Below are positions 1,402-43,308 of a stretch of 43,809 nucleotides of DNA, one piece after another; position 1 is the stretch's first letter, and the number at the start of each line of letters is the position of its first letter. A program made the position numbers and the translations under genes. The stretch covers positions 1-43,809 of the forward strand of contig JAUZOD010000035.1 of the NCBI GenBank assembly GCA_030706635.1, written 5' to 3'. Under the pieces are notes generated by a model that ran no database searches, was not told the DNA's origin, and saw nothing but the letters and a program-made list of their open reading frames with translations. This DNA is from Bacteroidota bacterium (lineage in GTDB: Bacteria > Bacteroidota > Bacteroidia > Chitinophagales > Chitinophagaceae).

Positions 1402-1467
1402 CTGATTAAAATCATAAGAATGGCTGATCCATCTTACTATTCCCCGACGATACCCGCGCTACTTTTA
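1402..1467 (+). promoter_or_regulatory. FNR-type box and -7 element for the adh-usp-CoA-transferase operon
   Basis: CTGAT-TAAA-ATCAT at 1402-1415 is followed by TACTTTTA (TAnnTTTA) at 1460-1467. Centre-to-centre distance is 55 bp, the same as at eight other promoters in this window. Transcription would start at about 1471, essentially at the ATG at 1472, so the message may be leaderless (inference). Confidence 0.7.
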
Positions 1468-1471
1468 TCTG

Positions 1472-2512
1472 ATGAAAGCACTTGTATATCATGGTCCCGG
1501 CAAGAAATCCTGGGATGAAGTAAACCGGCCTGTATTGCAGGCATCTACAGATGTTATTGTGAAGATGGTGAAAACGACCATTTGCGGTACTGATCTGCAC
1601 ATCCTGAAAGGTGATGTGCCGGAAGTGACCGAAGGCAGAATACTCGGGCATGAAGGCATAGGTGTCATAGAGGAAGCCGGGAATGCGGTGAGCAGCTTCA
1701 AGAAAGGCGACCGGGTACTGATCTCCTGCATCAGTTCCTGCGGGAAATGTGCCTATTGCAAAAAAGGGATGTATTCCCATTGCGAAAACGGTGGGTGGAT
1801 ACTCGGCCATCTGATAGACGGAACCCAGGCTGAATATGTAAGGATTCCCTTTGCAGATAATAGCCTTTACCCCATTCCTGCAGGCGCTGATGATGACGCC
1901 ATGGTGATGTTAAGTGATATTCTGCCCACCGGCTTTGAATGTGGTGTGCTGAATGGCCAGGTGAAGCCGGGAGATACCATGGCTATTGTAGGCGCCGGAC
2001 CGATAGGTCTTGCCGTATTGCTAACTGCCCAGTTCTACACGCCGGCCAGCATCATTATGGTTGACGTGGATGATAACAGGCTCGGGGTAGCCAAAAAATT
2101 TGGCGCCACCCATGTGATCAACAGCCAAAAGAATGATGTGATCAAAACAATATTTGCACTTACTGAAAACAGGGGAGTGGATGTTGCGGTTGAAGCGGTC
2201 GGGGTGCCCGCAACTTTTGAACTCTGTCAATCCATTATTGCACCCGGCGGGCATATCGCCAATGTTGGCGTGCATGGTAAATCAGTGGAACTGCATCTGG
2301 AAAAACTATGGGCACAGAATATTACCATCACCACAAGACTTGTCGATACGGTCACAACGCCCATGTTGCTAAAAACCGTAAGTTCCGGAAAGCTCCAGCC
2401 GGAAAAGCTGATAACCCATCATTTTAAATTAAGTAATATCATAGAGGCCTATGAAACTTTCGGGCATGCAGCAAAGGAAAAAAGCCTGAAAGTGATTCTG
2501 AGCAACGAATAA
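1472..2512 (+). CDS. Zinc-dependent alcohol dehydrogenase
   Basis: This 346-residue medium-chain dehydrogenase has the catalytic zinc site (C in TTICGTDLH and the GHE motif) and the structural zinc cluster CGKCAYCKKGMYSHC at about residues 90-104. The Rossmann motif GAGPIGLA lies near residue 174 and an acidic residue follows the second strand (VDVDD), which favours NAD(H). It should interconvert an alcohol and its aldehyde or ketone; the exact substrate cannot be read from the sequence. It is first of three same-strand genes with a USP (gap 28) and a CoA-hydrolase/transferase (gap 29). With the upstream FNR-type box this suggests a fermentative operon that reoxidises NADH when oxygen or nitrite is short (inference). 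Confidence 0.9.
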   Translation: MKALVYHGPGKKSWDEVNRPVLQASTDVIVKMVKTTICGTDLHILKGDVPEVTEGRILGHEGIGVIEEAGNAVSSFKKGDRVLISCISSCGKCAYCKKGMYSHCENGGWILGHLIDGTQAEYVRIPFADNSLYPIPAGADDDAMVMLSDILPTGFECGVLNGQVKPGDTMAIVGAGPIGLAVLLTAQFYTPASIIMVDVDDNRLGVAKKFGATHVINSQKNDVIKTIFALTENRGVDVAVEAVGVPATFELCQSIIAPGGHIANVGVHGKSVELHLEKLWAQNITITTRLVDTVTTPMLLKTVSSGKLQPEKLITHHFKLSNIIEAYETFGHAAKEKSLKVILSNE

Positions 2513-2540
2513 ATCATCTGATCATTTTAAATATTTTTTT

Positions 2541-3365: not shown

Positions 3366-3394
3366 CCATCCGCTTGAGTCCATATCCTCCCATT

Positions 3395-8233: not shown

Positions 8234-8299
8234 CAAAAATATGCGCGGGTGAATAGTAAGTGCCTGATCTATTGCAGGGAAAGAACTGATTTTAATCAG
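8234..8299 (-). promoter_or_regulatory. FNR-type box and -7 element of the ba3 oxidase operon
   Basis: On the minus strand CTGAT-TAAA-ATCAG (8299-8286), a perfect 5-base inverted repeat, lies upstream of TATTTTTG (8241-8234), a perfect TAnnTTTG. Centres are 55 bp apart. Transcription would start near 8229, giving a leader of about 12 bases to the GTG at 8217. No TTTG -33 element is visible, consistent with activator dependence. Confidence 0.78.
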
Positions 8300-8392: not shown

Positions 8393-8449
8393 AAAAAAAA
8401 TCCGGCGAGCAGGTTCAGGTCGGCATTATTTGCATACCTCCTGACCGGA
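8393..8449 (-). terminator. Rho-independent terminator of the DUF2892 operon
   Basis: On the minus strand an interrupted stem pairs TCCGG/CAGG (8449-8436 region) with CCTG/CCGGA (8414-8401), followed by a run of eight T (complement of 8400-8393). The hairpin overlaps the last codons of the 8426-8800 gene and separates it from the oxidase promoter. Confidence 0.6.
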
Positions 8450-8800
8450 TAAAAACCTGGCCAGAGCCCGGTGCAATTCTATATGGGCGTCATAAATATT
8501 CTTCATGCGGTCAAACAAATCATTTTCACAGGGAGTGGTCCTGGGGGTATCATAGGTATGGTTATTACCCGCCCAGTATGTGGTTCCATTATTCAGGCTT
8601 GCCAAAAGCACGAACTCCGTCGTATCCAGGCTCCTGGAAAGTACAGCAATGTCTTCCATAAATTTATTTTTTGGACCGGTCTCAATGTCTTCCCCCAAAT
8701 TCAGCCTCAATTCCGCCTTAATCCTTTCCAGTTCATTGCGGACAGATTGAATCTGGCTGACCCAATACATGCGTTCTTTATAAATATAGCCAATCGTCAT
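8426..8800 (-). CDS. Hypothetical protein, mostly helical
   Basis: I do not recognise this 124-residue soluble protein. The first 45 residues are heptad-like (QIQSVRNELERIKAELRL) and may form a coiled coil. A later Asn/Thr/Gly/Tyr-rich segment, NNGTTYWAGNNHTYDTP, links to a second helix with HIELHRALARFLSG. It has one cysteine in PCEND and one near the C-terminus. It follows the DUF2892 gene by 11 bases on the same strand and ends in a terminator, so it is the second gene of a two-gene unit under an FNR-type promoter. An alternative start is the methionine at residue 11. Confidence 0.6.
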   Translation of the reverse strand: MTIGYIYKERMYWVSQIQSVRNELERIKAELRLNLGEDIETGPKNKFMEDIAVLSRSLDTTEFVLLASLNNGTTYWAGNNHTYDTPRTTPCENDLFDRMKNIYDAHIELHRALARFLSGQEVCK

Positions 8801-9048: not shown

Positions 9049-9115
9049 CAAAGATATCCAGGGCCAACGTCCGATCTGTATGACCTCAAGCTTTTCAGCT
9101 TGTGATTTTAATCAT
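9049..9115 (-). promoter_or_regulatory. FNR-type box and -7 element for the DUF2892 operon
   Basis: Minus strand: ATGAT-TAAA-ATCAC (9115-9102), then TATCTTTG (9056-9049), a perfect TAnnTTTG. Centres are 56 bp apart. The predicted start of transcription is near 9044, which supports the downstream translation start at 9033. Confidence 0.72.
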
Positions 9116-9136: not shown

Positions 9137-9180
9137 ATGACTAAGATCAGGCTCAAAAAGCCGGCGGCCCCGTAGTTTTG
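9137..9180 (+). promoter_or_regulatory. FNR-type box and -7 element for the second alcohol dehydrogenase
   Basis: ATGAC-TAAG-ATCAG at 9137-9150 and TAGTTTTG (perfect TAnnTTTG) at 9173-9180 have centres exactly 33 bp apart. The left half-site has a C in place of T, as at several other sites in this window. The predicted leader to the ATG at 9236 is about 50 bases. Confidence 0.7.
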
Positions 9181-9235: not shown

Positions 9236-10243
9236 ATGAAAATGCCGGATCTAATGCAAGCAATGGTATTGACCGAGCCGGGAAAGCCGCTTGTTCCTAA
9301 AGCTGTCGCCCTGCCGGTTCCCACAGCCGTCCAGGTATTGGTAAAAGTCATCGCCTGTGGCGTATGTCGTACGGACCTTCACATTGTTGACGGGGAACTT
9401 AAGCATCCAAAACTGCCACTGATTCCCGGACACGAAATTGTGGGTATGGTTATGAAAACCGGCACTGAGGTGACAAATTTAAAAGAAGGGGAATTGGTTG
9501 GTATTCCCTGGCTGGGCTATACCTGCGGTAAATGCAGATTTTGCTTAAAGGGTCAGGAAAACCTGTGTGAACAGGCAGCTTTTACAGGATATACCCTGGA
9601 TGGAGGATATGCAGAATACACGGTAGCTCACCATCAGTACTGTTTTCCTCTTCCCGTGCAATATGCGAATTCATCCGGAGCGCCCTTGCTTTGCGCCGGG
9701 CTTATCGGGTACCGGGCATATAATATGATTGATGACCAGTCAGAAAAGATAGGAATTTACGGATTTGGGGCGGCCGCGCATATTCTGATACAGGTTGCAG
9801 TTCAGCAGGGCAAAAAGATTTATGCATTCACCCGGAAGGGAGATTTGGTTTCGCAGGAATTTGCGATAAAGCTTGGGGCCGTTTGGGCGGGCGATTCGTT
9901 ACAAACCCCGCCGGAAAAGCTGGACGCCGCAATCCTATTCGCGCCGGTAGGCAGCCTGGTTCCCAAGGCATTATTGGATACAGACAAAGGAGGTATAATT
10001 GTTTGTGGCGGCATTCACATGAGTGATATACCTTCGTTTCCCTACCGTTTGTTATGGGAGGAGAGAGTAATCAGATCAGTCGCCAATCTCACACGAAAAG
10101 ATGCAGAAAGCTTTTTGAAGCTGATATCACAGGTGCCCATCCAAACTGAAACTCAGTTGTTTCATTTGCATCAGGCGAATGAAGCCCTGGATAGTCTACG
10201 TGCCGGCCGTATCCGGGGGGCCGCAGTTTTGACGATGGATTGA
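9236..10243 (+). CDS. Zinc-dependent alcohol dehydrogenase (AdhA-like)
   Basis: This 335-residue medium-chain dehydrogenase has catalytic zinc residues in ACGVCRTDLH and PGHE and a structural zinc cluster CGKCRFCLKGQENLC at about residues 98-112. The nucleotide-binding loop is GFGAAAH in place of the usual GxGxxG, so the third glycine is replaced. The PWLGYTCGKC block is typical of the YjgB/AdhA subgroup that oxidises short alcohols or reduces aldehydes. It is distinct from the first dehydrogenase at 1472. The first possible ATG is used; methionines at residues 3, 7 and 10 are alternatives. The FNR-type promoter 56 bases upstream suggests induction when respiration is limited (inference). Confidence 0.88.
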   Translation: MKMPDLMQAMVLTEPGKPLVPKAVALPVPTAVQVLVKVIACGVCRTDLHIVDGELKHPKLPLIPGHEIVGMVMKTGTEVTNLKEGELVGIPWLGYTCGKCRFCLKGQENLCEQAAFTGYTLDGGYAEYTVAHHQYCFPLPVQYANSSGAPLLCAGLIGYRAYNMIDDQSEKIGIYGFGAAAHILIQVAVQQGKKIYAFTRKGDLVSQEFAIKLGAVWAGDSLQTPPEKLDAAILFAPVGSLVPKALLDTDKGGIIVCGGIHMSDIPSFPYRLLWEERVIRSVANLTRKDAESFLKLISQVPIQTETQLFHLHQANEALDSLRAGRIRGAAVLTMD

Positions 10244-11058: not shown

Positions 11059-11102
11059 ACCCTTCAGTAGATTGCGGGCAGCCCTATAAGTCATCCTTGG
11101 GG

Positions 11103-11146
11103 CTGACTTAAATCAGATGCAGGCACCGGTTAATTATTTACGTTTG
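11103..11146 (+). promoter_or_regulatory. FNR-type box and -7 element for the USP at 11201
   Basis: CTGAC-TTAA-ATCAG at 11103-11116 and TACGTTTG (perfect TAnnTTTG) at 11139-11146 have centres exactly 33 bp apart. The predicted transcript starts near 11150, downstream of the longest-frame ATG at 11117, so it selects the ATG at 11201. Confidence 0.75.
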
Positions 11147-11200
11147 ACAAAATATAAAGGCTTAGCGGCAGGGCGTACTCATCATTGTCAACAAAATCTT

Positions 11201-12046
11201 ATGCTTAAAATACTGGCACCCACAGATTTTTCCATCAACTCAAAGGCGGGACTCCGGTTTGCTTTGCGATGGTCTGCCCAACAGAAATTAGAAATTATAT
11301 TTATCCATATTTTCCATGTTAACCGCCTCCCTCAATGGACTGATGCGGACTTTAATATAAATGTGGACATGGAAGCCGAAGACAAAACACGCAGGCTTCA
11401 CAAATTTGTTCAGGCCTTGTATAAATCAACAAATATAAATCCGGCGAAATACTCATGCGTTGTAAAAAACGGCCTTTCGGCCGATATAGGCATCATGGAC
11501 TTTTGCAGGAATTATAAAGGCATAGACTTCATATGTATCGCAACGCGAGGTGCGGGAAAGTTGGATAAATTACTGGGCACCACTACCGGAAACCTGACAA
11601 CCAAGTCTCCTGTACCGGTAATCACCGTACCGGGAAATTACCGGGCAAATTCCATTAAACGCATACTGTATGCAACTGATTTTCGAAATTACAAGGAGGA
11701 ATTAAGAAAAGTAGCAGCTTTTGCCCGGCCGCTGGGAGCAAAAATAAACGTGCTGCATTTAAGCCGGTCGAATGACGTGTTAGCTGATGGTAAAACAATT
11801 AACAATCAGTTTAAAGGCAAATTTTACAAGAACATAGATTTAGAAATAGACAAAAGCCAGACAGGGCAATCCCTGCTTACAAATCTGCAAAAACAGATTA
11901 AGAGGTTAAAGCCTTCCCTGATTATTATGTTTACTAACCAGCACAGAAGTTTTTTTCAAAGAATTGCATTTCCAAGCAAGACCGAAAAGGTATCATTCAC
12001 CACAACGATTCCGCTGCTATCGTTTCATAAGGAACAAAAGACGTAA
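11201..12046 (+). CDS. Universal stress protein, tandem UspA domains
   Basis: The 281-residue protein starts MLKILAPTDFSINSKAGLRF. The first UspA fold (about residues 1-145) keeps an ATP-type motif, RGAGKLDKLLGTTTGNL, in the place of GxxGx9G(S/T), so it may bind nucleotide. The second fold begins with IKRILYATDFRN and is more divergent. The longest frame starts 84 bases earlier, but its extra residues do not look like a USP and the predicted transcription start lies inside that stretch. It differs clearly from the other USPs here, which have degenerate ATP motifs. It is followed after 137 bases by a permease and a P-ATPase on the same strand. Confidence 0.88.
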   Translation: MLKILAPTDFSINSKAGLRFALRWSAQQKLEIIFIHIFHVNRLPQWTDADFNINVDMEAEDKTRRLHKFVQALYKSTNINPAKYSCVVKNGLSADIGIMDFCRNYKGIDFICIATRGAGKLDKLLGTTTGNLTTKSPVPVITVPGNYRANSIKRILYATDFRNYKEELRKVAAFARPLGAKINVLHLSRSNDVLADGKTINNQFKGKFYKNIDLEIDKSQTGQSLLTNLQKQIKRLKPSLIIMFTNQHRSFFQRIAFPSKTEKVSFTTTIPLLSFHKEQKT

Positions 12047-15832: not shown

Positions 15833-15987
15833 AGTGGAAAGCCCGCAAAAGATTGGCTGACTAACATCACCGGCAATACTGATCAGCATCCTAAATTTAG
15901 TTTAACGGGAACATTATTTTTGTGGGATAAGATAATATAAACGCAGGTATGTTTCCCGTAATTAAAGCCCTGCCCTTCAAACCGAAG

Positions 15988-16014
15988 CCTCGTCAAGTTC
16001 TGGCGGGGTTTTTT
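15988..16014 (+). terminator. Rho-independent terminator after the Ca2+ ATPase
   Basis: Stem CCTCGTCA / TGGCGGGG (8 pairs, three G-T wobbles), loop AGTTC, followed by six T at 16009-16014. It ends plus-strand transcription before the convergent USP gene. A 25-residue open frame (15949-16026) runs through it and is probably chance. Confidence 0.7.
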
Positions 16015-16019
16015 ATAAT

Positions 16020-16856
16020 TCACAAATGAGCTATAAAAATTGGCTGGGTAATTGACCTGATCAGCGGATCAGCGTGACTTCCGATGAAGAACCGGGATAA
16101 AGCATTCCTTCCATAAGCACCCATAACCAGGAACATATTCTTCCGGTTAAAAAGCAGATCAAACAATCCTTCATCGGTTTTTCCTTTTATGGCTTCAAAA
16201 TGCAGGTTTGTATAGTGGTCCTTCAGCCATTCGTTAAATCTGTGTTTATCCGGATCATGCCATTCCCCGGTTTCATTTACCTGAAGAATGGTGACTTTTT
16301 TATCCTGTAGCTGGGAGAAAAGATACGTGAACTGTTTAATGGCAAATGCCGCCGATGCAGAGCCATTATAGGCAAATATTATTTCGTTCAACTCCTCAAA
16401 TCGCTCAGGAGAAATAATGACAGGGCACTCGGCCTTTTGAAGAATATCCCGGGCAAATCCGGTTGGGCTATCTTGAAACCGCTTTTTAAAGGAAGTTCCT
16501 GCATCTATCACCAGCACATCAGCAAATCTGCTTTCTTTGATAAGATCGCGGGCCGGCAAGCCCCGGTCCCTGTGTACAATGAAACTAACCCCGCTATTCA
16601 AACATTGGTCTTTAAATGCGGAAATATTTTGCTCAATCCTCGCCGTTCTGGCAATATTTGCCGCAGCATCTTCCCTGTCCGAAAACATTATAGCCCTGCC
16701 CTGGAGGTCTTTCTGCACCGGGCGAACCTCATCCTGCAGATTCTCCAAAAAGACAGCGGTAATTTTGGATTTTGTTAAATGCGCCAAATAGCAGGCGAAT
16801 TTCAATGCATTCTCATTAGGCACCAGCGCATCAATAGCAAGGAGTATCTTTTCCAT
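16020..16856 (-). CDS. Universal stress protein, tandem UspA domains
   Basis: The 278-residue protein begins MEKILLAIDALVPNENALKF. Fold 1 spans about residues 1-150 with the ADVLVID strand and KAECPVIISPE; fold 2 begins with EIIFAYNGSASAAFAIKQF and ends PIFIAHL. The ATP loop in fold 2 is degenerate (MGAYGRNALSRFF). It is closely similar in layout to the proteins at 20120 and 23831, which points to recent duplication in this region. It has its own FNR-type promoter on the minus strand and lies between a plus-strand terminator and a divergent gene. Confidence 0.9.
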   Translation of the reverse strand: MEKILLAIDALVPNENALKFACYLAHLTKSKITAVFLENLQDEVRPVQKDLQGRAIMFSDREDAAANIARTARIEQNISAFKDQCLNSGVSFIVHRDRGLPARDLIKESRFADVLVIDAGTSFKKRFQDSPTGFARDILQKAECPVIISPERFEELNEIIFAYNGSASAAFAIKQFTYLFSQLQDKKVTILQVNETGEWHDPDKHRFNEWLKDHYTNLHFEAIKGKTDEGLFDLLFNRKNMFLVMGAYGRNALSRFFIGSHADPLIRSITQPIFIAHL

Positions 16857-16870: not shown

Positions 16871-16965
16871 TAAAACTAGCATTCCGCAGCTGATGGTTAC
16901 TGAGTACAATCAAAAAACTGTGTGATTTTGATCAGCATACTAACAAATTGCGAATCATATCTTCA
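16871..16965. promoter_or_regulatory. Divergent promoter region with one shared FNR-type box
   Basis: The box GTGAT-TTTG-ATCAG occupies 16922-16935. On the minus strand it reads CTGAT-CAAA-ATCAC, and TAGTTTTA (16878-16871) lies 54 bp downstream for the USP at 16856. On the plus strand the hexamer-like TATCTTCA (16958-16965) lies exactly 33 bp downstream for the gene at 16984, but it differs from TAnnTTTG at two positions. The minus promoter is well supported; the plus promoter is weaker. Confidence 0.62.
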
Positions 16966-16983: not shown

Positions 16984-17751
16984 ATGAATTCCGTCGCGCT
17001 AAAAAGAGAACATGTGGCAGTCGGACTGCCGAAGTACAGGCCGGCAGTTTCCATCATTCAGTCTTTTGATCAAAAAATAGACCTAAAAAGAAATCTGGAT
17101 TATAAATTGAAAATTGCGCTGGAAAAGGCTGAAAGGGAACTCATGGCAAATTATCCGGCAAACCTGGTCATTCCTGTTATAAAAAAGCTTCGCCATCTAT
17201 CCGGGTTGAAATATGATGCTGAAAAAAAAGGCGTTGCCATTTATGTTTCTACTGCGGTGGAAAAGATTTTTTATCTTGATATTAATGTGGAAGACAAAAT
17301 TATAATTGACGAATCATTTGAGATCCGGGACCTGGCGCATAGCAAAAAATTGAGCATCAGATATTTAGTGCTTATACTGCATGCTGCATCCTTTAAAATG
17401 TATCTCTGCAGGTCATCTGTATTTACACTCGTCAAAACTGAAGCAACAGAAAGGGTATCCGATGCCACGGTTAACAATGGAAAGCAGGCGTCAGATCAAT
17501 TTCTCCATCGCGCTGATAAAGAAGTTTCCATTTTAGTGAAAGCATATTCCCTGCCTGTATTTGTGATGGGACCAAAAAGGCCACTACAAAGATTCAAACA
17601 CTTAACAAAATGCGGGCAGTCTATCGTGCAATATATTTACGGAAGTTATTTGAATAAAAAAACAATCCATATCTACAAAGTTCTGAAGCCCCATTTGGCT
17701 TGCTGCGAAAATGAACAAAATGGAATTTGTGGTCGCGTCCCGCCGGATTGA
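16984..17751 (+). CDS. baeRF3-like protein (bacterial eRF1-like fold), C-terminally truncated
   Basis: The 255-residue protein fits the bacterial family related to archaeo-eukaryotic release factor 1 (baeRF family 3). Family features are PKYRPAVSIIQSF near the start, LDYKLKIALEKAERELMANY, GVAIYVSTAVEKIFYLDINV, then SFEIRDL and LPVFVMGPKRPLQRFKHLTK. Family members as I know them are near 360 residues, with a further domain after the VLKPHL point. Here the frame ends about 20 residues past that point, so the last third is missing. It may be a functional short form or a decaying gene. The function of the family is unproven; a link to stalled ribosomes has been proposed from the fold. The following CHAD gene is 55 bases away. 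Confidence 0.65.
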   Translation: MNSVALKREHVAVGLPKYRPAVSIIQSFDQKIDLKRNLDYKLKIALEKAERELMANYPANLVIPVIKKLRHLSGLKYDAEKKGVAIYVSTAVEKIFYLDINVEDKIIIDESFEIRDLAHSKKLSIRYLVLILHAASFKMYLCRSSVFTLVKTEATERVSDATVNNGKQASDQFLHRADKEVSILVKAYSLPVFVMGPKRPLQRFKHLTKCGQSIVQYIYGSYLNKKTIHIYKVLKPHLACCENEQNGICGRVPPD

Positions 17752-18625: not shown

Positions 18626-18699
18626 GATCTGGGACTGTTAAATCTCATTTAGCAGGCTTTCTGACGCTTTTTCCATTGTGTGGTTCCCAATTCGGGTCA

Positions 18700-18924
18700 T
18701 TAAATACTTCTTTTTTTATAGTTCAAGATGGCCCATCCATTGAATACGAATGCAAAGCCAAGCAATGCCAGAATCTGTGTTTTTATGTCCGCCAGCCCGC
18801 TGCCTTTGAGCATAACCATTCTCATGACCTGAATAAAATATGATACAGGATTTAGCCTGGTAATGAACTGAGCCCATTCAGGCATGCTTTCAATGGGTGT
18901 ATACAAGCCGCTGAACAAATTAAA
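18700..18924 (-). pseudogene. ABC-2 type permease, C-terminal fragment
   Basis: In the minus frame ending at 18700 the sequence reads as the last 75 residues of an ABC-2 export permease: LFSGLYTPIESMPEW, then FITRLNPVSYFIQVMRMVML and a final hydrophobic helix. In intact transporters about 300 residues precede the LFSG motif. No start codon with a plausible N-terminus is present. The sequence upstream switches abruptly to the beginning of an outer-membrane efflux protein, so this is one side of a deletion. Confidence 0.8.
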
Positions 18925-19106
18925 CTGGTCAGGTCTTTTTGCCTGATCAGCGGGTAATTTGTTCTGGCTAGCAGGTAGGCGTTCTCGATGGACAAGATTT
19001 TTATCGCCTGTGCCACTGCGCTGGCGCCGCAGACAGAAAATAAGCCCAGCAGGAAGATCGAGATTGCCGAAAGAAGGGGATTTTTGTTTGTTTGAACAGC
19101 GTTCAT
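18925..19106 (-). pseudogene. TolC-like outer-membrane efflux protein, N-terminal fragment
   Basis: From the ATG at 19106 the minus strand encodes a signal peptide (LLSAISIFLLGLFSVCGASA) followed by ILSIENAYLLARTNYPLIRQ, the standard beginning of a TolC-family protein. After about 59 residues the sequence runs out of frame into the ABC-2 permease end at about 18922-18930. TolC, adaptor and permease genes usually stand in this order in efflux operons. The simplest reading is one internal deletion that removed the rest of tolC, the adaptor and most of the permease. The frame remains open for 25 more residues of permease DNA in the wrong frame. Confidence 0.78.
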
Positions 19107-19244
19107 ATTATTTACAGTCTGATAGTTTGATTTTTAAAGAGATCATTCTTTCCGCTTTTTAGTTGTTCTTGATATCTATTATTTATTCTGATTTATTGAC
19201 TAGGTTGAGGTTAATAAAATTATCGCGGATTTATCGGGGGGGAT

Positions 19245-19287
19245 ATGATCTAAGTCACCCACAATTGTGATTCAATTCGTACTCTGG
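19245..19287 (+). promoter_or_regulatory. Possible FNR-type box before a small membrane ORF
   Basis: ATGAT-CTAA-GTCAC at 19245-19258 keeps the TGAT/GTCA core. The nearest -7-like element, TACTCTGG at 19280-19287, lies 32 bp downstream but matches TAnnTTTG poorly. The box is plausible, the promoter weak. Confidence 0.4.
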
Positions 19288-27261: not shown

Positions 27262-27302
27262 CTAAAGTCCTAAAACCGGGTATTCAACCAGAAATATATT
27301 TG
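27236..27302 (+). promoter_or_regulatory. FNR-type box and -7 element of hsp20, box inside the ATPase gene
   Basis: CTGAT-CAAA-TTCAT at 27236-27249 lies within the last codons of the ATPase. TATATTTG (perfect TAnnTTTG) follows at 27295-27302, with centres 56 bp apart. The predicted leader is about 38 bases and carries a strong Shine-Dalgarno site, AAAGGAGG, at about 27331-27339. Confidence 0.68.
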
Positions 27303-27344: not shown

Positions 27345-27791
27345 ATGACAACTAAAGCATTAGCGAAATCCGGAGAATTTGTTCCTGCGGTTCTCAACGA
27401 TTTTTTTAAACCCTGGAATGAATGGTTTGAAAATGGAGGAAATTTTTGGGGAAAACCCATTTCGGTACCCGCAGTAAATGTTACCGAAAACACGAAAGAT
27501 TTTAAAGTATCCATGGCGGCGCCCGGTTTAAAAAAGGAAGATTTCAAAATCGACGTGGATGGTAATATGCTTACAATCAGCTCGGAAACCGGGGAAGAAA
27601 AAGAAGAAAAAGATGAAAAGTACACAAAGAAAGAGTACAGCTATTCTGCTTTTTCCAGGAGCTTTACTTTGCCGGAAGGCGTGAATAAGGAAAAAATCGA
27701 GGCTGCCTATGAGAATGGGATTTTGCGCCTGGTATTACCTAAATCGGAGGATTCAAGAAAGATTTCGGTTAAACATGTGACCGTAAAATAA
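27345..27791 (+). CDS. Small heat shock protein, Hsp20 family
   Basis: The 148-residue protein has an alpha-crystallin domain from about residue 38: VPAVNVTENTKDFKVSMAAPGLKKEDF, then the acidic EEKEEKDEKYTKKEYSYSAFSRSFTLPEGV, and finally AAYENGILRLVLPK with the conserved GxLxLxLPK. A C-terminal RKISVKHV stretch follows, carrying an IxV-type anchor. It is an ATP-independent holdase that binds unfolding proteins. The start is set by a strong AAAGGAGG ribosome-binding site, one of the few in this window, suggesting high expression. A perfect terminator follows. Confidence 0.95.
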   Translation: MTTKALAKSGEFVPAVLNDFFKPWNEWFENGGNFWGKPISVPAVNVTENTKDFKVSMAAPGLKKEDFKIDVDGNMLTISSETGEEKEEKDEKYTKKEYSYSAFSRSFTLPEGVNKEKIEAAYENGILRLVLPKSEDSRKISVKHVTVK

Positions 27792-29209: not shown

Positions 29210-29416
29210 ACCGGGTGAGGCCGGCCCGGATTCTCCGGAACGGCGGACGATGGACACCGCTCTTCGTACTGCAATGCATTCGCGGTTGCCAAAAAGTGCA
29301 TCTGTCCGGGCAATATTGTGAAGTTCAACATAATTCTGTTTTTATAAGGGTCAAGCCTATTATTTCGGGAAAACGGAAAAGGATCATGTTACGCTTGATA
29401 TTATTCAGCCTGGGAG

Positions 29417-29460
29417 CTGACGGGTATCATTGTTCGTCCAGGGATTGGAGAATAGCTTTA
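29417..29460 (+). promoter_or_regulatory. FNR-type box and -7 element upstream of the usp remnant and nitroreductase
   Basis: CTGAC-GGGT-ATCAT at 29417-29430 and TAGCTTTA (TAnnTTTA) at 29453-29460 have centres exactly 33 bp apart. The predicted start near 29464 leaves about 9 bases to the remnant's ATG at 29473. Confidence 0.65.
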
Positions 29461-29472
29461 CCAAAAATAATA

Positions 29473-29643
29473 ATGAAAAAGATGCTCCTGGTAATCGATG
29501 GTCAGAATGTGGACAAAAATGCTGCTCATTACGCTGCCTATCTTACGCGGCTCACCCGATCGAACTTAGTACCTGTCTTCCCCGGGGACCTGCATATTTG
29601 TTGCACATTATTAATCTTGAATCATTCATTCTTAAATATCTGA
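29473..29643 (+). pseudogene. Universal stress protein remnant (N-terminus only)
   Basis: The 56-residue frame begins MKKMLLVIDGQNVDKNAAHY and AYLTRLTRSNLVPVF, which aligns residue for residue with the start of the USPs at 16020 and 20120 (KILLAIDALVPNENALKFAC, YLAHLTKSKITAVF). After about 40 residues the similarity stops and the frame ends at 29643. The remaining 220 residues of a tandem USP are absent. The nitroreductase ATG follows after 2 bases. I read this as a deletion that left the promoter and start codon and joined them to the nitroreductase gene; a leader-peptide role is possible. Confidence 0.8.
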
Positions 29644-32612: not shown

Positions 32613-32678
32613 ATGATGACAATCAGGAGACTAACTGGCCGTCGTCATTCTTTCTGCAATGAGAAGATTTTATCTTTA
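32613..32678 (+). promoter_or_regulatory. FNR-type box and -7 element with no gene downstream (small RNA promoter)
   Basis: ATGAT-GACA-ATCAG at 32613-32626 and TATCTTTA (TAnnTTTA) at 32671-32678 have centres exactly 55 bp apart, the same geometry as the ba3 and usp promoters. No open frame with an ATG lies between it and the terminator at 32864. Confidence 0.68.
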
Positions 32679-32682
32679 TTCC

Positions 32683-32888
32683 AATATTATCCGAGGGAGA
32701 TCGGTCAAGCAGGAGGATAGATATAACTGTTTAAAAGACAGTAAACTAACTGACCGAAACACAGTATAAAAACTGTTACCTTGATCAGGAAAATCGTCGG
32801 GTAAGACAGACGCTGTTAGAATAGTGGTTGCAAAAGACCATAACACTGCCAACGTCGACCGGGGGCAGGCTTTCGAGCCTGCCTTTTT
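32683..32888 (+). ncRNA. Candidate FNR-type-regulated small RNA, about 200 nt
   Basis: Between the predicted start (about 32683-32686) and a strong intrinsic terminator (32864-32888) there is no ATG on the plus strand. The interior has short inverted repeats: ACTGT...ACAGT at about 32728-32744 and ACAGT...ACTGT at about 32762-32777, which could form two hairpins or pair with one another in the alternative way. ACAG-ACG-CTGT near 32807 is another small stem. I know of no matching RNA family. The call rests on promoter geometry plus terminator, not on homology. An IS element begins 13 bases after the terminator. Confidence 0.55.
32864..32888 (+). terminator. Strong intrinsic terminator of the candidate small RNA
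   Basis: Perfect stem GGCAGGCT / AGCCTGCC with a TTCG tetraloop, followed by five T (32884-32888). UUCG-type loops give very stable hairpins. No protein gene precedes it for about 500 bases on this strand. Confidence 0.85.
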
Positions 32889-32901
32889 GGGTGTATTTCA
32901 T

Positions 32902-32914
32902 AAACTGTGTCAGT
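32902..32914 (+). repeat. IS256 left terminal inverted repeat
   Basis: AAACTGTGTCAGT, matching the complement of the right end at 34226-34238 over 13 bases. Confidence 0.8.
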
Positions 32915-32922
32915 CATCAAAA

Positions 32923-33001
32923 CTCCTTGGCAATCGATGTTTTTATTTGATGCTGTTGGACGATGTTCAAATGCCCGTAAAAACATCGGTTGACAAGGAG
33001 G
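32923..33001 (-). repeat. Long imperfect hairpin at the transposase 3' end
   Basis: Arms at 32923-32945 and 32978-33001 pair over about 23 bases with three mismatches (CTCCTTGGCAATCGATGTTT against CTCCTTGTCAACCGATGTTT). It lies directly after the transposase stop, inside the IS. It could terminate transcription, shield the element from outside reading, or act as a structured end. Confidence 0.7.
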
Positions 33002-33003
33002 CC

Positions 33004-34194
33004 TCATAGGTTCAGTTTTAACCGGTCTCCAAAAATAATCATTAACTGCGCCAGGGTCTTGTTCCATTTGCTGGTGATATGATCCTGGGCCAGGAACAGT
33101 AATTTCATGAGCGCCTCTTCAGACTGGAATGCTCCCTTGGATTTGGTTACCGTTCGCAGCTGCCGGTGGAAGCCTTCAATGATATTGGTCGTGTACATGA
33201 TCCGACGGACATCTTTATTGTATTGAAAGTAGTTCGACAGCCTCGGCCAGTTCCTTCTCCAGGACTCTATCACCTTCGGATAGCGGTCACCCCAGTTCTT
33301 TTCCAACTGATCCAGATTACGCTCGGCCTGTTCTTTGGTGGCTGCTTTGTAGATCAATTGCAGATCCTTCAAAAAAGGTTTTACATCCTTCCAGGACAGA
33401 TATTTCTGCGCATTGCGTACCTGGTGTACCACGCAGAGCTGTACTTCTGTTTTTGGAAAAATCGTCTCGATCGCTTCTGCAAATCCATTCAGATTATCGA
33501 TGCAGGCAATCAGGATATCTTCCACGCCCCGGTTATGCAGATCGGTCAGCACCTGAAGCCAGAAGCGGGATCCTTCACTTTCTCCGATATACATGCCCAG
33601 CAGTTCTTTGAAGCCTTCCTGGTTTACTCCGATAATGCAGTAAACAGCCCGGCTCACCACCCTTCCTTCATGCCGGACCTTGTAATGGATGGCATCCAGC
33701 CAGACAAACGGGTAAACCGCTTCCAGTGGCCGGTTACGCCAGTCCTGGATCAGGGGAAGGATCTTATCCGTTACCCGGCTGATCGTAGCCGGCGAAGCTT
33801 CCAGCCCGTACATGTCCATCAGATGATCCCGGATGTCAGAATAACTCGCTCCCCTCGCATACAGCGCAATGATCTGACGGTCCAGATCGACACCCAGCGT
33901 CTTTTGTCGTTTGGGTAAAATCTCCGGATCGAAGCTGCCATTGCGATCCCGCGGAGGCTGGATATCTACATTACCCACGGGCGTCTTCACGCGCTTTTTT
34001 CCTTTCCCGTTCTTCCGGTTGGGGCTGTCTCCCGATTCAATATGGGCTTCCAGCTCCCCATCCATGGCTTCTTCCAGGAACTCTTTCAGCAGTGGTGTGA
34101 ATACTCCGTCGCGACCCAATAGGGTGTCGCCCTTCTTGATACGTTCTGCAGCATCCTTCTTGAATGCTTCAAAATCAAAATTTGTCTTTTCCAT
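33004..34194 (-). CDS. IS256-family transposase
   Basis: The 396-residue protein is a complete IS256/mutator-type DDE transposase. The first Asp is in VWLDAIHYKVR, the second in IACIDNLNGF, and the Glu in TNIIEGFHRQLR, with the family helical insert CVVHQVRNAQKY between. The N-terminal part KTPVGNVDIQPPRDR is typical. It cuts and joins the element ends. The frame has no stops or shifts, so activity is possible. Confidence 0.95.
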   Translation of the reverse strand: MEKTNFDFEAFKKDAAERIKKGDTLLGRDGVFTPLLKEFLEEAMDGELEAHIESGDSPNRKNGKGKKRVKTPVGNVDIQPPRDRNGSFDPEILPKRQKTLGVDLDRQIIALYARGASYSDIRDHLMDMYGLEASPATISRVTDKILPLIQDWRNRPLEAVYPFVWLDAIHYKVRHEGRVVSRAVYCIIGVNQEGFKELLGMYIGESEGSRFWLQVLTDLHNRGVEDILIACIDNLNGFAEAIETIFPKTEVQLCVVHQVRNAQKYLSWKDVKPFLKDLQLIYKAATKEQAERNLDQLEKNWGDRYPKVIESWRRNWPRLSNYFQYNKDVRRIMYTTNIIEGFHRQLRTVTKSKGAFQSEEALMKLLFLAQDHITSKWNKTLAQLMIIFGDRLKLNL

Positions 34195-39100: not shown

Positions 39101-39760
39101 CTATTTTGTTATGGATACTGGTTTTAGATATGCTTCGAACCATGCTGATGCCAGCTTCGCCACCTCATCCAGTTTCCCCCGTTCTTCGAACAGATGAGTA
39201 GCCCCGTCTACTACCACCAATTCCTTATGGCACCGCAGTTCTTTAAGGGCCTGCTTATTTAGTTCCAGCACCTCTGTGTCAAGGCTTCCTACAATGCATA
39301 AAACCGGCGCTTTCACAGCCTTCAAAGCGTTCAGGGACGCGAGGTCGGGACGTCCGCCTCTGGAAACGACTGCTCCAACCTGTTCAAGCCCCGCAGCAGC
39401 CTGCAATGCAGATGCTGCGCCGGTACTGGCGCCAAAATACCCGATGCGGCAATTCTTCGCAGCGGGAACTCTTTCCAGCCACTCCGTCGCTCCCTTTAGT
39501 CTTTTAGTCAGCAATTCGATATTAAAGCGATTCTGATACTGATTGTCTTCCTCTGGTGTAAGCAGATCCAGCAGCAATGTGCCAAAATTTCTTTCACGAA
39601 GGTATGCGGCTACCTGCTGGTTACGGGTACTGAACCGGCTGCTGCCGCTGCCATGGGAAAATACAATTATCGCTTTTGCGTCAGGAGGAATAAATAACTC
39701 GCCGCCGAGGCCCGCTTGACCAACCTGTATAGTCACTTCTTTATGAAAGATTTTATCCAT
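39101..39760 (-). CDS. Alpha/beta hydrolase, dienelactone hydrolase-like
   Basis: The 219-residue protein has an alpha/beta-hydrolase fold: FSHGSGSSRFSTRN near residue 33 for the oxyanion area, GYFGASTGAASALQAA carrying a nucleophile in GxSxG (Ser in GAST), LCIVGSLDTEV with an Asp, and a late His in GATHLFEE. It is probably a small esterase or hydrolase. It heads the hydrolase-PRT-FtsH-zinc ribbon-GroEL operon and follows a promoter with two FNR-type boxes. Confidence 0.86.
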   Translation of the reverse strand: MDKIFHKEVTIQVGQAGLGGELFIPPDAKAIIVFSHGSGSSRFSTRNQQVAAYLRERNFGTLLLDLLTPEEDNQYQNRFNIELLTKRLKGATEWLERVPAAKNCRIGYFGASTGAASALQAAAGLEQVGAVVSRGGRPDLASLNALKAVKAPVLCIVGSLDTEVLELNKQALKELRCHKELVVVDGATHLFEERGKLDEVAKLASAWFEAYLKPVSITK

Positions 39761-39831: not shown

Positions 39832-39897
39832 TAAATGTACCGGTGCCGGTACACCTGAAAAATGACTACTATCAAAAACACATCTGACAATAGTCAT
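39832..39897 (-). promoter_or_regulatory. Tandem FNR-type boxes and -7 element for the hydrolase-ftsH-groEL operon
   Basis: Minus strand: ATGAC-TATT-GTCAG (39897-39884) and TTGAT-AGTA-GTCAT (39875-39862), then TACATTTA (39839-39832). Box centres lie exactly 55 and 33 bp from the -7 centre, and 22 bp from one another. An inverted repeat of 8-base arms, TGTACCGG-TG-CCGGTACA at 39836-39853, covers the region just upstream of the -7 element. On the plus strand TCACTTTG (39920-39927) lies 33 bp from the outer box, towards cdsA. Confidence 0.7.
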
Positions 39898-40008
39898 GGT
39901 TTTCCGGTACTGAATGAATTCACTTTGTGGATGTTAATTATAAGTCCGTTCGTACATGGGTATATGGACCGGATCTTCAATAAAAAATAATGAACCCTGG
40001 CGGCAAAA

Positions 40009-40842
40009 ATGAAAGGCCACAGTGCTATAAAGAAGCGGGGCGTAACCGGAATAATCCTGGTGCTGCTTATTAGCCTTTCCATTTGCAAAGGACAGAATAC
40101 CTTTATTTTTTTACTTTTGATCCTAAATCTGCTGGCAATTCTTGAATTTTATCAATTGTTTTTCCGTGCCGGAGTTATGCCACGGGTAACGATGGGTTCG
40201 ATCTTATCCACATGCATTTTAATGACTGTTGCAGTTGTTGTTACCGGGGTGGCAGTTTCAACTATTTACCTGATAAACATTCCTCTTGTGTCCGGAATTT
40301 TTATCTCGGAGTTATACCGAAAGGCTAAGAATCCGTTTCATGACCTCGCTTTCACTTTCCTGGGCATCTTTATGGTCACCATTCCTCTTTGCCTGTTTGT
40401 GACGATCGCCTTTTTACCCGTCCATTCCGGAAAGTATCACGCACAAATAATTTTGGGATACTTTTTCATTCTTTGGGCAAGTGACACGGCCGCCTATCTT
40501 ATTGGCAGCGCCTTTGGAAAACACGCCTTGTTTCCCCGGGTGTCGCCCGGCAAGACCTGGGAAGGAAGTCTTGCTGGCGCCGCCGGTGCCTTTTTGGTAG
40601 CTTATTTTGTTTCCCGCTATTTCACTGGTCTTTCTACAACCGGCTGGACCGCTATCGCCTCCATAATAGTGATAATGGGTGGTTATGGCGACCTGATCAA
40701 ATCGCTTATCAAGCGCAGTCTTAACGTGAAGGATTCCGGAACGATCCTTCCCGGCCATGGTGGCATGCTTGACCGCTTTGATACTTTACTGGGCTCGGCG
40801 CCTTTTGTTTTTGGTTACCTGATTTTGTTTCCCTATGCGTAA
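40009..40842 (+). CDS. cdsA: Phosphatidate cytidylyltransferase (CDP-diglyceride synthase)
   Basis: The 277-residue membrane protein has about seven hydrophobic helices and the CdsA signature at the end: SPGKTWEGSLAGAAGA, then GYGDLIKSLIKRSLNVKDSG and LPGHGGMLDRFDTLLGSAP. It makes CDP-diacylglycerol from phosphatidic acid and CTP. Its last 8 bases overlap the next gene, a CDP-alcohol phosphatidyltransferase, so the two probably work in sequence. It is divergent from the hydrolase-ftsH-groEL operon. The possible plus-strand promoter is TCACTTTG at 39920. Confidence 0.9.
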   Translation: MKGHSAIKKRGVTGIILVLLISLSICKGQNTFIFLLLILNLLAILEFYQLFFRAGVMPRVTMGSILSTCILMTVAVVVTGVAVSTIYLINIPLVSGIFISELYRKAKNPFHDLAFTFLGIFMVTIPLCLFVTIAFLPVHSGKYHAQIILGYFFILWASDTAAYLIGSAFGKHALFPRVSPGKTWEGSLAGAAGAFLVAYFVSRYFTGLSTTGWTAIASIIVIMGGYGDLIKSLIKRSLNVKDSGTILPGHGGMLDRFDTLLGSAPFVFGYLILFPYA

Positions 40843-41419
40843 ACAGAGTTACTATATTGTAAATGGAATTACGCTCTATCGGTTAGTTGTATTTCCCCTG
40901 CTTATTTTGCTCATTATTTATAAGCGCTTTGACCTGTATAAATGGCTGCTGCTGGTCAGTTTCTTAACAGACGCTATAGATGGCTTTCTGGCGCGCAGGT
41001 ATAAGGTGGTAAGCGTTTTAGGGGCAAAACTCGATTCAGTAGCAGACGATCTGACCATATTATCTGTCGTAATCGGAGCTATTGTATATAAACCTGAATT
41101 CATTCGGAAGGAGATGAGTCTGATCATTATACTGCTTGGCCTTTTTGTTTTCCAAACAATTTATGCCTTTGTTCAGTATGGTAAATTAAGCAGCTTCCAT
41201 ACCTATGCAGCAAAGTTTGCCGCTATACTGCAGGGAAGTTTTCTGCTCCTGCTTTTCTTTTTGCGCGAACCGGTATACTGGCTATTTTATATAGCTGCCG
41301 TGGTGACCATTGCCGACCTGCTGGAAGAAATTATTCTGGTTTGGATCCTGCCCGAATGGACGGCTAACGTTAAAGGCATATTTTGGATTATGCGGGATAA
41401 ACGTTTAAATAAAGGTTGA
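40835..41419 (+). CDS. CDP-alcohol phosphatidyltransferase
   Basis: The 194-residue membrane protein has the family catalytic motif DGx2ARx8Gx3Dx3D, seen as DAIDGFLARRYKVVSVLGAKLDSVADD near residues 46-72, with five to six hydrophobic helices. It transfers a phosphatidyl group from CDP-diacylglycerol to an alcohol, for example glycerol phosphate or another headgroup. It overlaps cdsA by 8 bases. The alcohol acceptor is not predictable; it may be a second phosphatidylglycerol-phosphate or cardiolipin route used under stress. Confidence 0.87.
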   Translation: MRKQSYYIVNGITLYRLVVFPLLILLIIYKRFDLYKWLLLVSFLTDAIDGFLARRYKVVSVLGAKLDSVADDLTILSVVIGAIVYKPEFIRKEMSLIIILLGLFVFQTIYAFVQYGKLSSFHTYAAKFAAILQGSFLLLLFFLREPVYWLFYIAAVVTIADLLEEIILVWILPEWTANVKGIFWIMRDKRLNKG

Positions 41420-41652
41420 ACTGAATGGGCGGGATACGCTTATTCGTGCTCTGCCTTTCTCTACTTTCCGGGCATTTGCCTTGTTTGGAAACCCTTATAT
41501 ATTAAAAATCATACACTTACATCAAAACGCGGTTTCTTTTTTTTTTTTAGAAACAAGCTACCTGACATGGATAATATCGAACTTCGAAGTAGAAAAGTGG
41601 GCTATTCCGGAAGTCTAAAGCGCGGAGTTTTTTAGATCACTCATCTTCACAT
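41420..41652 (+). other. Intergenic region before the histidine kinase
   Basis: This stretch of 233 bases contains an AT-rich part, a 12-base T run at 41537-41548 region flanked by GTTTC and AGAAAC, and a 22-codon frame (41567-41635) with no clear ribosome site. No FNR-type box with a matching -7 element was found. The kinase promoter is unclear. Confidence 0.5.
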
Positions 41653-43242
41653 ATGCCAAGCGATATCTTACAAATAGAAAAAGAGAGTTATCAGCATTTG
41701 GTAGAGAATGTGAGGGATTTTGCAATTTTTATGACGGATGTTTCAGGATACATTATCAGCTGGAACAAGGGAGCCGAATTTGTCAAAGGCTATACGGCAG
41801 CCGAAATAATTGGCAAACACATCTCTGTATTTTATACTCCTGAACAAATCGCGGAAGGCGTTCCCCAAATGGATTTGCAAATTACCCTGGAAAAGGGTCA
41901 GTTTGAAGATGAGGCGTGGCGGATACGCAAGAACGGAACCAGGTTTTGGGCGCATGTTGTATTTACCCTGCTAAAGGACTCCCTTGGCAATACAGTGGGT
42001 GTCGGAAAGGTCACCCGGGATATAACCAGGAGAAAAAAAGTGGAAGATGAAAATAGACGCCTCAATGATAAATTAAAGGATCAGTTACAAAAGAGCCGTT
42101 CGGAGATATTGGACTATAAACACGCCCTCGATGAGTCATCTATCGTAGCCATAACAGACCAGAAGGGGATTATACATCATGTCAATGATAATTTCTGCGC
42201 CATTTCAAAATATTCCAGGGAAGAGTTGATTGGTCAGGATCACCGGATCATCAACTCAAAATATCATCCCAAGGAATTTATTCATGATCTCTGGACCACC
42301 ATTGCCAAAGGGAAAATCTGGAGGGGGGAACTAAAAAATAAGGCAAAGGATGGCACTTTCTATTGGGTTGACACGACCATTGTCCCTTTTCTGAATGAAA
42401 AAGGGAAACCATATCAGTATCTGGCTATACGAAGTGATATTACAAAGCGTAAACTCGCTGAGGAGCAAATTCATGAGATAAATGAAGATCTGGAGAGGAA
42501 AATCAGGGAGAGAACATTGGAATTAACCAAATCGCTTGAACGTGAAATGTCGTTAAACGAAATGAAATCCCGTTTTGTCTCCATGGCCTCCCATGAATTC
42601 CGGACCCCACTGACAGCCATCCTGTCCAGCATTTCTCTGATAGAACGCTATAAGATGCCGGATCAGGAGGAAAAACGGCACAAGCATGTCGAACGAATTA
42701 AATCATCCATACGCAATCTCACGGATATTCTGGACGATTTTCTTTCTTTGGACAAACTTGAACAGGGGAAAATTGAGACCCAATGTCTGCATTTTGATCT
42801 TCAGGAATTTATTGAAGACACCATCAATCAAATGGAGGGCATGCTTAAGAAGAAAAATCAGGAAATTTTACTTATATATAATGGGCCACGGGAAATTAAA
42901 CAGGATAAGAAAATACTTCGCAATGTTCTCCTGAATCTTCTTTCAAATGCCGTGAAATATTCACCAGAAGGAAAAATAATACAGGTTCAAGTTAATGGTG
43001 ATAATGAAAATGTTTTTATCGCCATAAAGGATGAGGGTATCGGAATACCATTTGAAGCCCAACAGCATTTATTTTCAAAATTCTTCAGGGCTGGAAATGC
43101 GGTGAACATTCAGGGTACCGGATTAGGCTTAAATATTGTTCAGAAATATGTCGAATTGCTGGATGGAAATATCAGCTTTTCAAGCGAAGAAAATCAGGGT
43201 TCAGTCTTTACCGTTGGATTCCCGAAAGAGGGCAAGGGATAA
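41653..43242 (+). CDS. Cytoplasmic PAS-PAS histidine kinase
   Basis: The 529-residue protein has no membrane segment. Two PAS domains (about residues 12-127 and 150-267) are each followed by a PAC-like tail (TRDITRRKK, SDITKRKLA). A coiled coil of about 30 residues leads to a HisKA domain with phosphoacceptor H314 in SHEFRTPL. The ATPase domain has NLLSNAVKYS, DEGIGIP and GTGLGLNIV. It should be a soluble sensor of a small molecule, redox or energy signal; I cannot see a haem or iron-sulphur ligand set. It precedes two tandem receivers and may phosphorylate one or both. The start is the first in-frame ATG. Confidence 0.92.
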   Translation: MPSDILQIEKESYQHLVENVRDFAIFMTDVSGYIISWNKGAEFVKGYTAAEIIGKHISVFYTPEQIAEGVPQMDLQITLEKGQFEDEAWRIRKNGTRFWAHVVFTLLKDSLGNTVGVGKVTRDITRRKKVEDENRRLNDKLKDQLQKSRSEILDYKHALDESSIVAITDQKGIIHHVNDNFCAISKYSREELIGQDHRIINSKYHPKEFIHDLWTTIAKGKIWRGELKNKAKDGTFYWVDTTIVPFLNEKGKPYQYLAIRSDITKRKLAEEQIHEINEDLERKIRERTLELTKSLEREMSLNEMKSRFVSMASHEFRTPLTAILSSISLIERYKMPDQEEKRHKHVERIKSSIRNLTDILDDFLSLDKLEQGKIETQCLHFDLQEFIEDTINQMEGMLKKKNQEILLIYNGPREIKQDKKILRNVLLNLLSNAVKYSPEGKIIQVQVNGDNENVFIAIKDEGIGIPFEAQQHLFSKFFRAGNAVNIQGTGLGLNIVQKYVELLDGNISFSSEENQGSVFTVGFPKEGKG

Positions 43243-43264
43243 CCTGCCGACATCATAAAGCCTG

Positions 43265-43308
43265 TTGACTTACATCATCTTTACAGGATACCGGAAGCTT
43301 TAGCTTTG
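43265..43308 (+). promoter_or_regulatory. FNR-type box and -7 element for the receiver gene
   Basis: TTGAC-TTAC-ATCAT at 43265-43278 and TAGCTTTG (perfect TAnnTTTG) at 43301-43308 have centres exactly 33 bp apart. Transcription would start at about 43312, directly before the ATG at 43316, so the message may be leaderless. Confidence 0.75.

Follow-up and report, generated by a model that had tools for sequence, protein, structure and literature searches.

FNR, ANR and DNR regulons, like class II Crp/Fnr promoters, combine a TGAY-N4-RTCA box near -41.5 and a Crp/Fnr helix-turn-helix (HTH) with respiratory targets, and in the FixL-FixJ-FixK2 cascade a PAS kinase, a receiver and a Crp/Fnr factor serve low-oxygen genes. 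To our knowledge, few activator rules are known for Bacteroidota, whose -7 element is unusual. Here we analyze a stretch of 43,809 nucleotides (the window), which is the entire contig JAUZOD010000035.1 (C92) of a Chitinophagaceae genome (GCA_030706635.1, or G000; 4.58 Mb in 162 contigs). Nearly all promoters of the window share a composite operator in which two Crp/Fnr-type boxes abut at a spacing of 22 bp, and the likely reader of this operator is a receiver-cNMP-Crp fusion protein (REC-Crp).

In the parts of the literature available to us, DosR/DevR of Mycobacterium and OsdR of Streptomyces are response regulators under histidine kinases, with universal stress proteins, heat shock proteins and nitroreductases among their targets (PMC3029386, PMC5069765). 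The same parts describe adjacent strong and weak boxes to which DosR/DevR binds cooperatively, with the proximal box over the -35 element (PMC3029386, PMC5069765), and DevR regions outside the DNA-binding domain that draw it to the adjoining weak box (PMC3029386). The lxa locus of Burkholderia cenocepacia, as far as its description was available, is induced by low oxygen and aids survival without oxygen (PMC3759415).

The gene set of the window (five universal stress proteins, Hsp20, a nitroreductase, Ca-ATPase-like pumps and an oxidase) resembles the DosR/DevR regulon, and the arrangement of adjacent strong and weak boxes with a receiver-domain candidate reader is present here as well, with cooperativity predicted. 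DevR is a NarL-type protein, whereas our candidate has a Crp HTH as its output domain, with TGAN5RTCA boxes and the TAnnTTTG -7 element of Bacteroidota; no search for DosR homologues was made. Box type, box position near -41.5, the Crp/Fnr HTH and the respiratory target genes are shared with FNR, ANR and DNR, but here most promoters have a fixed second box 22 bp upstream, and the likely reader has a receiver and lacks a cysteine (Cys) cluster. The parts of the FixL-FixJ-FixK2 cascade recur too, except that the receiver and the Crp/Fnr factor are fused in one protein. The likeness to lxa, from another phylum, is that of a gene locus for survival under what would here be low oxygen. In the open-access literature we found neither this promoter grammar nor a REC-Crp fusion described, which is weak evidence of absence.

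Promoter geometry in the window and beyond

An earlier note on this DNA listed 15 boxes and proposed a window-wide Crp/Fnr-type regulon with box centres a fixed 33 or 55 bp from a TAnnTTTG-type -7 element. All 15 boxes were found, the distances were reproduced, and one promoter proved to have been overlooked (box 15858-15869). With boxes named as in that note, -7 elements matching at least 5/6 letters lie at 54-56 bp from 1402(+), 8286(-), 9102(-), 16922(-), 21025(-), 23669(+), 27236(+), 32613(+), 39862(+) and 39884(-), and at 33 bp from 8286(+), 9137(+), 11103(+), 16922(+), 19245(-), 23669(-), 29417(+), 39862(-), 39884(+) and 43265(+). In a blind scan, we combined all exact TGAYN4RTCA sites (n=17), on both strands, with all exact TAnnTTTR elements and kept pairs within 10-90 bp. 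Fifteen of the 17 exact pairs are at 32-34 or 54-56 bp, where the -7 element density predicts 0.16 (Poisson P ~6e-25). A control with -7 elements on the opposite strand, run on the window together with 16 kb of contig C91, gave 3 pairs (at 32, 42 and 72) versus 20. Box-like sites with at most one mismatch number 110 versus a shuffle mean of 62.7, and none of 100 shuffles reaches 110; as in a Crp/Fnr regulon, palindromic boxes of the TGA-N6-TCA class lie in the promoters above chance.

The geometry recurs elsewhere. Across the whole genome, window included, a box followed by N17-47 and TAnnTTTR has 40 matches versus 5 for the backward pattern, with 28/40 at 32-34 or 54-56 (15/27 outside the window). 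We also scanned 20 stretches (400 kb) from eight related genomes, chosen around REC-Crp genes (the relatives' islands), which gave 77 pairs, 27 of them at 33, 5 at 34 and 19 at 55, while the control with a reversed -7 gave 14 pairs and no peak. A larger set of 80 named loci, found via the REC-Crp protein and not via boxes, yielded 223 pairs with 54 at 33 and 88 at 55; these counts are not independent events because close relatives and orthologous promoters are included, and the 54 + 88 promoter sequences are all distinct. The reversed control of the named loci has 101 pairs, of which 1 falls at 32-34 and 6 fall at 54-56; block-shuffled sequence has 0.5 and 0.6. A geometry restricted to the window or its genus can be rejected, since other members of the order, and of the class beyond it, have the composite site too; outside the class its counts are near the control (20 vs 15 in 111 genomes). 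The strict window-wide geometry proposed earlier is thus upheld. So is the reported absence of a -33 TTTG element: in the named loci, 2/54 33-type and 7/88 55-type promoters have a TTTG that begins 18-31 bases before the -7 centre.

One composite promoter

The 33 and 55 modes are two faces of one promoter, TGAN5RTCA-N10-TGAN5RTCA-N23-TAnnTTT(G/A). Taking the earlier list with 39862/39884 merged and 15858 added gives 15 window operators, 14 of which have a 22-bp partner with at least 5/8 letters, compared with at most 3/15 at any of 31 other spacings; the earlier list had named both boxes of a single such pair (39862/39884). Pairs of one-mismatch boxes at 22 bp number 90 in the relatives' islands (the next spacing, 9 bp, has 19) and 10 in the genome's own islands, and pairs of exact boxes at 22 bp number 14 and 2. 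Pooling own and relatives' islands gave 37 promoters of the 33 type, 28 of the 55 type and 5 with both boxes exact. In those with a single exact box, RTCA is found 22 bp off in 31/37 33-type and 16/28 55-type promoters, versus 0-2 at other shifts. The named loci agree, with the TCA of the partner box at 22 bp in 51/54 and 70/88 (next-highest shifts 6/54 and 4/88; TGA 3 bp off in 10/88). Within their 55-type promoters the proximal TCA has its T in 88/88 and its A in 87/88. In the named loci as a whole, RTCA-RTCA at 22 bp with a 23-base gap to the -7 has 87 matches, compared with 0-6 for other spacings and 0-7 for other gaps.

The earlier note had explained the two distances as class II (near -41.5) and class I (near -61.5) activation. 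The corresponding model has two independent promoter classes, with the box at 33 (-41.5) or at 55 (~-63.5) and one functional box each. Exact palindromic boxes do cluster at both 33 and 55, and promoters with two exact boxes are few (5/70 in own and relatives' islands). Against this, most promoters of the 33 type have a half-conserved box at 55 as well, and most of the 55 type have one at 33, the partner half site being much rarer at other shifts, so that one box per promoter is not what we found in 14/15 window operators or in 51/54 and 70/88 promoters elsewhere. Class I activation should also permit boxes one or two turns further out. In the named loci there is no such ladder: pairs do not peak around 65-66, 76 or 86, each distance between 57 and 90 has 0-2 of them save 79 with 6, and single bins of the reversed control also reach 6. 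We therefore consider two separate classes very unlikely, and because 22-bp half boxes occur in most promoters of both types and no ladder is seen, we favor a single composite promoter in which the stronger box varies. In the window, three box pairs (16901/16923, 23670/23692 and 39863/39885) serve divergent promoters, so that a box at 33 in one direction is at 55 in the other; two of the three have a weak -7 on one side.

In the part of a study of Flavobacterium psychrophilum available to us, TAnnTTTG spans -12 to -5 (PMC9723704), which would put the two box centres at -41.5 and -63.5.

Candidate regulators

Of nine PF13545 matches in the genome, eight of them above cut-off, one is REC-Crp (P0001), a protein of 352 residues with PF00072, PF00027, PF13545 and PF00325, whose closest named relative (89%) is from a Chitinophagaceae genome. 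The predicted structure (mean pLDDT 82, pTM 0.58, from a 33-row alignment) suggests, with the elements named by us, a receiver, two linker helices, a beta roll, a long C-helix and an HTH, and among the best 60 of 188 solved-structure matches each spans the receiver or the Crp part and none spans both. The recognition helix is GTATESLIR or GVATESLIR in 19/25 copies read (own included) and a close variant in the other 6, and TATESLIR is present in 33/33 named copies. CRP positions 180, 181 and 185 have a role in DNA recognition, according to the part of the source available (PMC1274295). By our placement of the residues, REC-Crp appears to keep the equivalents of E181 and R185 and to have T in place of R180, which fits NTGA boxes without an outer G. 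The genome therefore encodes a regulator with a cNMP-type domain, a Crp HTH and recognition positions that fit the box. REC-Crp is present in 28/38 relatives, own genome included, with 2-3 copies in 13/28, and in at least 144/198 genomes of the order.

Some relatives have an FNR instead. In five genomes without a found fusion, the FNR proteins (5 read) have N-terminal cysteines and a GTATE(S/T)xIR helix; judged by sequence, REC-Crp and Cys-rich FNR share a recognition helix. A quick tree built from the Crp parts sets the 28 fusions apart by one branch (SH-aLRT 92) and the five FNR proteins by another (95), and it has several long branches. An FNR query matched in 28/198 genomes of the order. 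An Fe-S FNR regulon would call for such an FNR in the genome, but G000 has no match to this query at 1e-65; none of its Crp/Fnr proteins that were read combines this helix with a Cys cluster, and its REC-Crp lacks an N-terminal one.

Across the 198 genomes of the order, composite sites versus reversed control number 436/41 with REC-Crp only (134 genomes), 49/5 with FNR only (18), 42/4 with both (10) and 30/16 with neither (36). In the rest of the class the counts are 39/3 with REC-Crp (16 genomes) and 8/8 without (12), and none of the 23 fusion-positive genomes falls outside the class. REC-Crp as sole reader across the order is rejected, since FNR-only genomes have 0.80 sites per Mb versus 0.71 with REC-Crp. 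Sites are also physically linked to the fusion: of 138 listed composite sites in fusion-positive genomes, 45 (in 22/29 genomes) are no more than 20 kb away from a REC-Crp gene, where 1.7 would be expected.

A histidine kinase core ends at most 600 bp upstream of REC-Crp on the same strand in 43/80 named loci, and in 42/76 of those with at least 1.5 kb of DNA upstream. The core of the window's own PAS kinase (41653-43242) is 46-55% alike, among the matches listed, to kinases directly upstream of REC-Crp. At the window end, this kinase, a composite promoter, a receiver gene and 21 codons of a further gene lie in a row. The 21 residues from 43745 match the starts of two of the 33 named REC-Crp proteins in 20/21 positions, P0001 in 14 and the neighbouring receiver in 13.

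A different reader has been considered, namely the stand-alone Crp/Fnr protein of contig C123, or two Crp/Fnr paralogues on one box each, rather than REC-Crp alone. The C123 protein (helix GTARENVVR, no N-terminal Cys cluster) retains the E and R of the recognition helix and scores 161 bits to the FNR of genome G098, compared with 103-145 bits for REC-Crp proteins; a 55-type site lies ~130 bp from its gene start on the divergent side, and the 2-3 REC-Crp copies of 13/28 relatives would make mixed dimers possible. However, it lacks the TATES/TATET helix, and in a survey that covered REC-Crp and FNR, composite sites follow the presence of either regulator and the location of REC-Crp genes. We regard such a reader as unlikely.

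Proposed mechanism

How the operator might be bound, filled cooperatively and made to activate under a phosphorylation signal can be pictured as follows. The 22 bp between the boxes, roughly as long as one Crp site, is close to two helical turns, so both boxes would face the same side of the helix. The proximal box near -41.5 would stand in for the absent -33 element and the distal box would lie near -63.5. Two regulator dimers would sit side by side, the strong box recruiting the first and contact bringing the second to the weak partner, and both would recruit sigma-A polymerase at the TAnnTTTG-type -7; pairing a strong with a weak box would yield steep, signal-dependent activation. Here the reader would be REC-Crp, phosphorylated by PAS histidine kinases such as 41653-43242, and in relatives without it a Cys-rich FNR with the shared recognition helix would read the same operator. 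A receiver-driven contact between dimers is a natural guess by analogy with DevR. Overall, we find it likely that the window is a low-oxygen or nitric oxide (NO) survival island whose composite operator is cooperatively read by the two-component REC-Crp, or by FNR in relatives that lack the fusion.

Several observations weigh against this reading. The complete REC-Crp gene of the genome sits on contig C155 and not in the window, operator 9138 lacks a partner at 22 bp (1/8 letters), and the C123 protein could, from its helix, read the same boxes. Of the listed composite sites, 93/138 are away from any REC-Crp gene, and 16/144 REC-Crp genomes have zero composite sites at the strict pattern. Conversely, 54/198 genomes have no REC-Crp match at the cut used and 10/54 of these hold at least 3 composite sites, 7 of the 10 with FNR and 3 with neither regulator. 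Direct autoregulation of REC-Crp was not found as a rule: in 1/80 named loci a composite promoter is located at most 330 bp upstream of the gene. The samples have limits as well: for some of the 20 stretches from relatives, box hits were already known when they were chosen, the exact motifs used in the counts favor strong sites, the order survey scored at most 10 candidates per genome and may have missed REC-Crp genes, and its counts are uncorrected for shared descent.

Separately, a near-identical 66-base box-to-(-7) stretch occurs at G000:C154:11767-11832 and G000:C155:148-213, which may be a repeat or an assembly overlap.

Target genes and signal

The genes behind 118 composite promoters include Usp (14), COX1 (8), FixO (8), cytochrome c (8), hemerythrin (7), Rrf2 (6), ADH (6), ScdA_N (5), P-type ATPase (5), YceI (5) and nitroreductase (2), with Crp-HTH proteins making up 2/118. 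From these gene types, and from the ScdA_N/hemerythrin gene that adjoins REC-Crp on contig C155, we infer that the signal is low oxygen or NO.

The window itself encodes oxidase subunit I (COX1), a subunit II-like protein (CoxB-like), SCO1, cytochrome c and a copper nitrite reductase-like protein, the last scoring under its NCBIfam cut-off. Five universal stress proteins (2541, 11117, 16020, 20120 and 23831) are all above the Pfam cut-off, and there are two alcohol dehydrogenase-like and two P-type Ca-ATPase-like genes. General stress genes also include Hsp20, GroEL, FtsH, cardiolipin synthase-like and L,D-transpeptidase-like ones. The window further contains BON, CoA transferase-like, nitroreductase, SDR, phosphoribosyltransferase, hydrolase, cytidylyltransferase, PgsA-like and IS256 transposase genes, together with its PAS histidine kinase and receiver protein for signalling. 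The protein at 16984-17751 has distant similarity, under cut-offs, to a ribosome hibernation factor/baeRF.

Universal stress proteins, Hsp20, GroEL, FtsH, the L,D-transpeptidase-like and the cardiolipin synthase-like proteins would also suit an island that answers general stress (envelope, starvation) rather than oxygen or NO. We think this improbable, given the oxidase and copper nitrite reductase-like genes in the window and the same promoters in relatives ahead of COX1/FixO, ScdA_N/hemerythrin, Rrf2 and cytochrome c genes.

Features of the window

Coordinates of the promoters and signalling genes are given in Table 1.

Table 1. Promoters and signalling genes of the window. The -7 column entries belong to the strand shown.
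Feature	Position (strand)	Boxes	-7 element	Gene or ORF
Composite promoter	1403-1467 (+)	distal 1403-1414, proximal 1425-1436 (TGAT half)	1460-1467	then Zn alcohol dehydrogenase-like gene 1472-2512
Composite promoter	8234-8298 (-)	distal 8287-8298, proximal 8265-8276	8234-8241	then 8049-4654 (CoxB-like, COX1, SCO1, cytochrome c)
Composite promoter	9049-9114 (-)	distal 9103-9114, proximal 9081-9092	9049-9056	possibly ORF 8426-8800 behind, without Pfam match
Exception, 33-box only	9138-9180 (+)	9138-9149	9173-9180	then alcohol dehydrogenase-like gene 9236-10243
Composite promoter	11082-11146 (+)	distal 11082-11093 (GTCA half), proximal 11104-11115	11139-11146	then universal stress protein
Composite promoter, overlooked earlier	15858-15922 (+)	distal 15858-15869, proximal 15880-15891	15915-15922	no ORF near downstream
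Shared box pair, divergent (minus side)	16871-16965	16901-16912/16923-16934	16871-16878	universal stress protein 16020-16856
Shared pair 16901/16923 (plus side)			16958-16965 (weak)	then gene 16984-17751
Composite promoter	19215-19279 (-)	distal 19268-19279, proximal 19246-19257	19215-19222	faces short ORF 18852-19106
Composite promoter	20973-21037 (-)	distal 21026-21037, proximal 21004-21015	20973-20980	then universal stress protein 20120-20956
Shared box pair, divergent (plus side)	23639-23734	23670-23681/23692-23703	23727-23734	universal stress protein 23831-24667
Shared pair 23670/23692 (minus side)			23639-23646	then DUF302 protein 23235-23621
Composite promoter	27237-27302 (+)	distal 27237-27248, proximal 27259-27270	27295-27302	then Hsp20 27345-27791
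Composite promoter	29396-29460 (+)	distal 29396-29407, proximal 29418-29429	29453-29460	then nitroreductase-family protein
Composite promoter	32614-32678 (+)	distal 32614-32625, proximal 32636-32647	32671-32678	no gene seen behind
Shared perfect box pair, divergent (minus side)	39832-39927	39863-39874/39885-39896	39832-39839	dienelactone-hydrolase-like 39101-39760
Shared pair 39863/39885 (plus side)			39920-39927 (weak)	then cytidylyltransferase-family and PgsA-like genes 40009-41419
PAS-PAS histidine kinase, candidate sensor	41653-43242 (+)			kinase core like those directly upstream of REC-Crp genes
Composite promoter, kinase/receiver gap	43244-43308 (+)	distal 43244-43255, proximal 43266-43277	43301-43308	
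Stand-alone receiver domain protein	43313-43696 (+)			
Gene start, cut by contig end	43745-43809 (+)			first 21 codons present

The -7 of the 1403 operator stops 4 bases short of the alcohol dehydrogenase ATG (1460-1474), which would give an almost leaderless message if used. By a crude start-codon rule, 28/200 promoters of own and related loci have at most 12 bases from the -7 to the start. Two of the -7 elements sit within the longest ORFs (11117-11201 and 29430-29598), so the universal stress protein and the nitroreductase likely start further in, at 11201 and near 29598.

Behind the composite promoter at 15858-15922, a hairpin and T run follow with no ORF between (15915-16012), possibly a small RNA of ~90 bases. 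This candidate has a fold z of -1.5, no relatives among the fetched loci and no Rfam match. A strict hairpin rule found no terminators behind 185 promoters.

The short ORF 18852-19106 has no Pfam match, and 18626-19106 combines a short ORF with stretches that by eye resemble decayed transport genes (an outer membrane efflux N-terminus). The 32614 promoter is followed by an IS256 transposase on the opposite strand (32614-34194), and the island may have been cut here.

Implications

We lean slightly towards a broader view in which Bacteroidia have a DosR-like survival system of independent make, with a kinase-driven REC-Crp acting as a locked pair of dimers at -63.5 and -41.5. The operator would then be a conserved code open to an Fe-S FNR or to the fusion, the sensor having been exchanged in evolution while the promoters were kept. 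In either case, the promoter grammar is exact and testable and precedes apparent low-oxygen/NO survival genes in a large part of Bacteroidota, and a widespread two-component Crp/Fnr fusion can be named as its likely reader. If the broader view is true, the layout of the mycobacterial dormancy switch, in which a receiver drives pairing on one strong and one weak box, would have arisen twice from unrelated DNA-binding folds.

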